From Methanoculleus chikugoensis (GTDB lineage: Archaea > Halobacteriota > Methanomicrobia > Methanomicrobiales > Methanoculleaceae), in assembly GCF_900095385.1 (NCBI RefSeq), contig NZ_FMID01000023.1, positions 1 to 43,799 on the forward strand: a stretch of DNA of 43,799 nucleotides. The letters are read 5' to 3'. The position numbers and the translations under genes were made by a program. Shown in pieces: positions 5,587 to 39,788 of the stretch (the stretch's first letter is position 1; each line of letters starts with the position of its first letter). The notes below the pieces were generated by a model, which did no database searches, was not told the origin of the DNA, and saw only the letters and a program-made list of their open reading frames with translations.

Positions 5587-5766
5587 CCCTGACATCCACC
5601 CTCTTTTCGCACTCTCATCTTTTGTACCTGTTCTCCGGCGTGAGTGGCGTCAAACGCTCCTGGTAAAGTCCATTGATCCTACTGCTTGTGGTCATCTAAA
5701 ACCCCAGTACTTCGCTAAAACGGTTGAGGTAATCTTCAAGAGGTCAAACCATCGACCTCCCTTCGC

Positions 5767-5814
5767 AACCTAACGGTTGCTCAAACTCCGGATGTTCCAT
5801 CCATCGTCCTTCGC
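5767..5814 (+). repeat. Hairpin-module insertion inside the long element copy, block A
   Basis: This 48-base block is absent from the short copy of the element. It is bordered by CCTTCGC on both sides, so it looks like an insertion with a 7-base duplication, or a slippage product. It contains AACC-TAAC-GGTT followed by GCTCAAACTCC, the same hairpin-plus-tail design as the modules at 6111-6260. Confidence 0.6.
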
Positions 5815-5891
5815 GTTCTCCCGCGTGCTTCCGCGTGAGTAAATTGGAGGATGTCAACAGAACCTCGCGCGAAGAGCGCGAAGCCGCGAAG

Positions 5892-5983
5892 CGCGACTGG
5901 CCGAAGGTGTGACGTTCCAGAGAAACGGAGTTGGAGCACCGTTAGGTGCGTGGGCAGGAGCATGAGCACCGCAAGGTGCGAAG
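5892..5983 (+). repeat. Hairpin-module insertion inside the long element copy, block B
   Basis: This 92-base block is absent from the short copy and is bordered by GCGAAG repeats. It carries two stem-loops, GCACC-GTTA-GGTGC and GCACC-GCAA-GGTGC, the first preceded by GGAGTTGGA, the inverse complement of the TCCAACTCC tail used by the modules further right. The modules are thus present in the opposite orientation here. Confidence 0.6.
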
Positions 5984-6072
5984 TCCGGTGCCCGGGTGCT
6001 GCCGATCCCGTTGTAGGTCGCTATGCGAGGCTGCATTGGTCTATTTCAGATACCGAAATTAGCGAAGTACTG

Positions 6073-6515
6073 AACCCAAATATTCGAGATCAACTTCGTG
6101 TTCTTCGCACTTCGCACCTACCGGTGCTCCAACTCCTTTCCCGCACCTGACGGTGCTTACGTTCGCTATCGCTCACGTCTCGAAGACCTCCGGTCTTCTC
6201 AAACTCCTGTCCGAAACCTTTCGGGTTTCTCAAGTTCCGGCCCTGCGGGCCATTGCATCCTACGGACAGTCGTTCTCCGGAACGTCGCACCCTTCGGAAA
6301 AGTCGTCCTTCGCGGCTCGCACTTGGGGCGGCTCAAGCTCGCTCTCGCTCGCACTTCGTGTGAGCTAACAGTCTATAAGCGATGATGCAGTCTCACGCGA
6401 AGGACGCGAAGCCGCGAAGCGCGAGAATCCGAGTCTTGAGAACTCCGGGAGACTTTGGGGAGAAGAAGGGGATGTGGGGAACTAGATCTCCAGCCGCTGG
6501 ACCGGGAAAATGGTG
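6073..6515. repeat. Gene-free stretch with a cluster of short hairpin modules
   Basis: No gene is supported here. The sequence is a string of stem-loops of about 30 bases: GCACC-TACC-GGTGC then TCCAACTCC (about 6114); GCACC-TGAC-GGTGC (about 6144); GAAGACC-TCC-GGTCTTC then TCAAACTCC (about 6180); GAAACC-TTTC-GGGTTTC then TCAAGTTCC (about 6208); GGCCC-TGC-GGGCC (about 6239). Stems differ but pairing is kept, with a frequent ACC...GGT core and a C/T-rich tail. At 6391-6421 a TCACGCGAAGG / GCGAAGCCGCGAAGCGCG tract follows, also seen near 5871, 12571 and 34100. The rest shows nothing further. Confidence 0.6.
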
Positions 6516-39442: not shown

Positions 39443-39459
39443 CTGCATTCATCCGGCCT

Positions 39460-39689
39460 CAGTACTTCGCTAATTTCGGCATCTGAAATAGACCAATGCA
39501 GCCTCGCATAGCGACCTACAACGGGATCGGCAGGACCCGGGCACCGGACTTCGCGGCTTCGCGCTCTTCGCGCGAGTTAATGGGCGAAGATAGCAATATG
39601 GCTTCACGCGGAAGCACGCGGGAGAACGCGAAGGGAGGTCGATGGTTTGACCTCTTGAAGATTACCTCAACCGTTTTAGCGAAGTACTG
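39460..39689 (-). mobile_element. Non-coding inverted-repeat transposable element (MITE-like), short copy, 230 bp
   Basis: It begins CAGTACTTCGCTAA and ends TTAGCGAAGTACTG, the same 14 bp terminal inverted repeats as the element at 5705-6072, and lies in opposite orientation. Perfect 5 bp target duplications GGCCT flank it (39455-39459 and 39690-39694). Against the long copy it lacks two hairpin blocks and differs in a central stretch of about 38 bases, while the ends are nearly identical. No gene is inside. It has landed 18 bases beyond tRNA-Gln. Confidence 0.87.
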
Positions 39690-39788
39690 GGCCTTCACAT
39701 TGCCGCACGTGGGTATTTCGCAGCCACTCTTATCTTGTTCGGCGGCGAAACCGGAAGGGACTTTTTGGCGTACGGCGAGCATACAAGA

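Follow-up and report, generated by a model that had tools for sequence, protein, structure and literature searches.

We suggest, with a probability of roughly 0.93, that two short repeats in the window, i.e. the whole 43,799-nucleotide stretch of Methanoculleus chikugoensis DNA analysed here, are type II MITEs, that is, gene-less cut-and-paste transposons, and that the DDE transposase of an ISH3-family element with CAGTACTTCGCTAA ends mobilises them in trans. Type II MITEs and ISH3 elements are both known already, and the new point, which is well supported, is a MITE family attached to ISH3. To our knowledge, no ISH3-linked MITE family has been described in methanogens, and a literature search, with most subscription journals beyond its reach, returned no paper on these repeats and none that links ISH3 to Methanoculleus.

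Copy A (368 bp, plus strand) lies at 5705..6072 and copy B (230 bp, minus strand) at 39460..39689. In the window, the 14-bp end CAGTACTTCGCTAA is found at four places only, each a terminus of one of these copies and each with 0 mismatches, as the left (5705..5718, plus) and right (6059..6072, minus) terminal inverted repeats of copy A and as those of copy B (39460..39473, plus; 39676..39689, minus). Each copy is flanked by its own 5-bp target-site duplication, to which no strand applies, AACCC on the left (5700..5704) and right (6073..6077) of copy A and GGCCT on the two sides of copy B (39455..39459 and 39690..39694). Since copy B aligns to copy A on the minus strand, the two copies are in opposite orientation; identity between them is 100% over the left 62 bp and 98% over the right 95 bp. 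Both are intergenic, and copy B is positioned at the 3' end of a tRNA-Gln gene, about 16 bp after the gene. The inverted ends, the separate duplications and the opposite orientation had all been claimed in an earlier note made from the DNA letters alone, and they were confirmed here. The same note regarded the copies as independent insertions of an element without a gene of its own. The first point agrees with the different duplications and with the empty copy B site in relatives described below, and the second with the longest complete internal ORF in 27 copies, which comprises 78 amino acids, ORF lengths varying from copy to copy.

The own genome of this strain is assembled into 70 contigs (2.65 Mb, 99.73% complete). 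When we searched it for the end, CAGTACTTCGCTAA was matched 12 times exactly and eight times with one mismatch, and the reversed control pattern gave 0 matches. Pairing of these ends yielded ten elements of 214-368 bp, and a DNA search added a few decayed or partial MITE copies. Many more copies were found in Methanoculleus and other Methanomicrobiales, so that the element family postulated from two copies is a real one. A perfect 5-bp duplication flanks seven of the ten own-genome elements; in the remaining three, 4, 4 and 3 of the five positions agree. For the duplication statistics we used 36 paired-end elements from Methanoculleus genomes and obtained the expectation by re-pairing flanks between elements. 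An exact 5-bp duplication was present in 22 of the 36 elements against 0.37 expected, while duplications of 2-4 or 6-10 bp, tested in the same 36 elements, gave no matches. Per position, flank identity was 81-89% within the duplication and only 14-39% in the five bases next to it on each side. Thus, the duplications hold in most further copies. The imperfect duplications of the remaining 14 elements fit ageing and recombination, although this was not proved copy by copy. As a separate observation, a third, unpaired end was seen on a T-tract beside a complete MITE of the own genome (C10:4075-4088; L069 2076-2089), and the pattern recurs in G003 (L124) and G004 (L221). The unpaired end is possibly a remnant of an older element that adjoins, or was hit by, a newer one.

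We then reconstructed the target preference from 26 exact duplications, four of them from other genera. The empty target is palindromic, CC-RGNCY-GG (C C [R G N C Y] G G). Position 2 is G or position 4 is C at 39 of 52 places, where 15 would be expected (p about 1e-11), and each of the flanking C/G positions carries these bases in 30 of 52 cases. A few of the 26 cases probably represent the same ancestral insertion in two genomes or duplicated loci, so that the effective number is slightly lower.

Empty sites were assessed by pairwise alignments with related genomes. The copy B site is empty in four genomes (G014, G006, G007 and G009), in which the alignment runs through the junction with a single GGCCT; in G006 the junction sequence reads TACTACATTCGCCCGGCCTTCACATTGCC. 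In aligned columns, copy B shares 98.2% identity with the copy that its own genome has on contig C10, which fits a recent move. Copy A is older and is found in two other genomes: G011 has it with 94% identity, and G003 has it at the same site but without the right end. The search for the empty site of copy A gave one weak candidate (G032, 76% identity). Based on these alignments, at least the copy B locus is not always filled in related strains, and neither of the two outcomes that the earlier note would have taken as its refutation was seen. G003 also lacks the MITE at the copy B site, yet carries another insert at the neighbouring tRNA-Gln. This insert of about 0.9 kb (L210 592-1510), located at the tRNA-Gln 3' end equivalent to the copy B site, has a repeated piece of the tRNA end, GCCCGGGGGTA, at its borders and encodes a DUF7557 protein (a plausible antitoxin) and a ParE-type toxin.

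The earlier note could not assign the ends to a named insertion-sequence family, and they have now been matched to ISH3. The exact CAGTACTTCGCTAA end is present in 21 of 35 genomes of the genus. Seven exact-end pairs lie 1271-1318 bp apart (in G001, G004, G008, G010 and G017), and further full-size elements, in G026 and as a second copy in G010, have one mismatch in one end. Full-size elements of about 1.3 kb with identical ends and a transposase, such as the note had proposed to look for, thus exist in sister genomes; they measure 1271-1319 bp, mostly 1318 bp. The contigs carrying them belong to Methanoculleus sp. Afa-1, UBA430, SM3-B2 and FWC-SCC3 and to a Methanomicrobiales metagenome bin. 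Three 1318-bp copies, two in G001 and one in G008, are flanked by the perfect duplications AATAG, ACGCA and ACACC. The full-size elements encode a DDE transposase of 386-393 amino acids. Two of these proteins scored 269.5 and 275.7 bits against the NCBIfam model NF033541 (transpos_ISH3), whose cut-off is 225, and Pfam gave only a sub-threshold DDE_Tnp_1 match for one of the two. D116, D198 and E298, as well as Y291/R294/E298/R302, are invariant in six homologues, the catalytic D residues being assigned by motif.

The ISH3 family has been defined by a length of 1225-1500 bp, CRGT ends, direct repeats of 4-5 bp and the replacement of YREK by Y-(2)-R-(3)-E-(3)-R (PMC2266710). The partner has CAGT ends, which fit CRGT, a size of 1271-1319 bp, 5-bp duplications (AATAG, ACGCA, ACACC and, in the plasmid element below, AATGT) and a homologous transposase with the Y-(2)-R-(3)-E-(3)-R motif. 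In published ISH3 insertions, the duplication also tends to be flanked by an A and, on its opposite side, by a T (PMC2266710). In our data, with MITEs and IS pooled, this A...T context outside the duplication was found at 6 of 52 positions versus 10.8 expected. The context is a reported tendency of ISH3 and not a defining trait. Judged from its sequence, the full-size partner belongs to the ISH3 family, from which it differs only in this context.

The ends also accompany related transposases in other families. Methanoregulaceae elements, whose proteins are 64-66% identical, have the ends CAGTAGTTCGCTAAT/CA(G/T)TACTTCGCTAAT. A Methanosarcinaceae element (47% identical) has CAGTACTTAGCTAAT/CAGTACTTCACTAAT and a 5-bp duplication, and an ISH3 element on plasmid pMETHO01 of Methanomethylovorans hollandica has CAGTACTTCGCTAAT/CAGTACTTAGCTAAT with the duplication AATGT, its protein being 44% identical and annotated as 'ISH3 family transposase'. 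Across these three groups the ends CAGTACTT..CTAAT are kept with at most a few changes. The ISH3 element of Halobacterium noricense, with ends CGGTACTTCCC, has the C-R-GTACTTC core in common. The end and the ISH3 transposase co-evolve. MITEs of the same design also occur outside the genus, in G037 and G042, which belong to another family of the order, and in G132, which belongs to a third; four of five examined there have a perfect 5-bp duplication (GGTCT, GGTGC, GGTCC and AACCC). In G037, which represents another genus, seven full-length ISH3 transposases were found, and these ends were present in five of six examined.

The relation of the MITEs to such elements has to be considered here. When we compared 27 MITEs with six full-size elements, the interiors gave no convincing match (best E 0.015), and the similarity is essentially limited to the 14-16 bp ends. 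Since similarity to the partner is confined to the ends, the copies are type II MITEs by the published definition (PMC10969869). They show inverted repeats, a target duplication, short length, lack of coding capacity, multiple copies and end-only partner similarity. It is improbable, in our view, that they are instead type I MITEs, i.e. ISH3 elements whose gene was deleted internally. The identical 14-bp ends would be expected of such a derivative, and the MITE right end and the IS end at the transposase start have 2-3 further bases in common (CTAATTT), but the interior similarity does not exceed chance in the 27 by 6 comparison and the MITE interiors are conserved among themselves between genera. 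Internal deletion of the IS was rejected as the MITE origin for want of interior similarity. From the shared ends and the duplications, we suggest that type II MITEs such as copies A and B are mobilised in trans by the ISH3 transposase. As the anatomy implies, an ISH3-type DDE transposase would bind both 14-bp ends and excise the MITE, which itself would provide the ends only. The excised MITE would then be joined to a 5-bp staggered cut at the palindromic target CC-RGNCY-GG, and gap repair after joining would leave the 5-bp duplication.

The anatomy was deduced from 27 aligned copies of 214-369 bp. A left block (TIR-AAAACGGTTGAGGTAATCTTCAAGAGGTCAAACCATCG) comes first, then a central palindrome (CCCTTCGCGTTCTTCGCGGCTTCGCGTGAG ... 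CTCACGCGAAGAGCGCGAAGCC) whose loop varies, and finally a right block (GCGAAGTCCGGTGCCCGGGTGCTGCCGATCCCG ... GAGGCTGCATTGGTC.ATTTCAGATGCCGAAA-TIR). In copy A, the CTTCGCG-rich left arm of the central hairpin is at 5808..5839 and the right arm, whose sequence recurs outside MITEs in the genome, at 5864..5891 (both plus); in copy B the arms are at 39549..39576 and 39603..39634 (both minus). The copies differ in length chiefly because some have additional small hairpin modules in the arms; copy A has several of these modules and copy B none. One extra module of copy A, missing from most other copies, combines the hairpin GCAACCTAACGGTTGC with CTCAAACTCC ... (5762..5807, plus), and a second set, with GAGCACCGTTAGGTGC and GAGCACCGCAAGGTGC, occupies 5899..5984 (plus).

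The hairpin centre, kept in most copies, together with the intergenic location of both window copies, one of them just behind tRNA-Gln, could suggest that the repeat is a dispersed structured RNA or a regulatory sequence of the terminator or REP type rather than a transposon. Indeed, copy B as RNA (z -5.4) and copy A as DNA (z -8.1) fold better than shuffled sequence. However, much of this folding is due to the inverted ends and the palindromic centre, an Rfam search gave no match overlapping the elements (tRNA only), and a repeat of this kind would not account for exact 5-bp duplications, empty sites and ends identical to those of a transposase-bearing element. We consider this reading very improbable, although the MITEs may have a secondary host role alongside their transposon nature. 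Spread by homologous recombination or segmental duplication instead of transposition has hardly any probability left, as some copies do have common flanks (G025 L127 and L128, both TCC-AGGCA) but nearly all others differ in flanks and duplications, and for copy B the precise empty site contradicts it.

Repeats resembling the hairpins were also observed apart from the MITEs. The words CTTCGCG and CGCGAAG occur in the MITE hairpin arms (5808-5839 and 5864-5891), at about 6385-6420 and at many places of the genome outside MITEs. In addition, intergenic arrays of short hairpins lie at 6092-6420 of the window, at L230 296-942 (G006) and at L232 200-440 (G007). Their stems vary (GCACCTGACGGTGC, GAAGACCTCCGGTCTTC, GAAACCTTTCGGGTTTC, GGTCCTTCGGTCC) and the linkers CTCAAACTCC and GTCGCACTTC are constant; in G006 the modules form a 46-bp tandem array of 14 copies. 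Modules like these array hairpins are also present inside the arms of some MITE copies.

Searches with the family model and with proteins found no ISH3 transposase in the own assembled genome, so the pairing of MITE and ISH3 was drawn from relatives. In G004, several contigs stop, at assembly breaks, about 113 bp from an IS end. In the own genome, on the contrary, all 20 end matches are well inside contigs, and an IS copy hidden by the assembly is therefore unlikely. Probably, the IS disappeared once it had mobilised copy B, or it arrived only transiently on another element. A bolder and rather unlikely reading is that the MITEs persist and can still spread without an ISH3 transposase in the genome, and that the central hairpin may also be a landing or expansion site for separate palindromic modules (hairpin plus CTCAAACTCC / GTCGCACTTC), dispersed and tandemly arrayed in Methanoculleus, which would make a nested two-level repeat system.

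Taken as ISH3-driven type II MITEs, the window elements can be compared with known systems. They are like the ISH3 family in CAGT ends, a 5-bp duplication and a partner, mostly of 1318 bp, whose DDE transposase has the Y-(2)-R-(3)-E-(3)-R residues (PMC2266710; NF033541), and unlike it in that they carry no transposase themselves and are found at CC-RGNCY-GG without the A...T context. In Sulfolobus, the MITE SM3A is mobilised by ISC1058 and SMN1 by ISC1733 (PMC3718332). Those elements are likewise short, non-coding and multicopy, have small direct repeats and need a trans-acting transposase, whereas our elements have ISH3 as their partner and a methanogen as their host. The duplications made by ISH3B, C and D of Halobacterium are 5 bp long, like those of our elements; of the Halobacterium elements MITEHsal1 and MITEHsal2, the latter makes duplications of 6 or 8 bp (PMC10264941) and by that criterion is not an ISH3-type MITE.

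Based on these results, a repeat family that is spread over the Methanomicrobiales and was previously unassigned gains a named partner, ISH3. MITEs without a driver in their own genome, together with an exact pair of filled and empty sites, provide a clean comparative system for MITEs that outlive their transposase, and the MITE ends and the target rule are usable for the biochemistry of ISH3.
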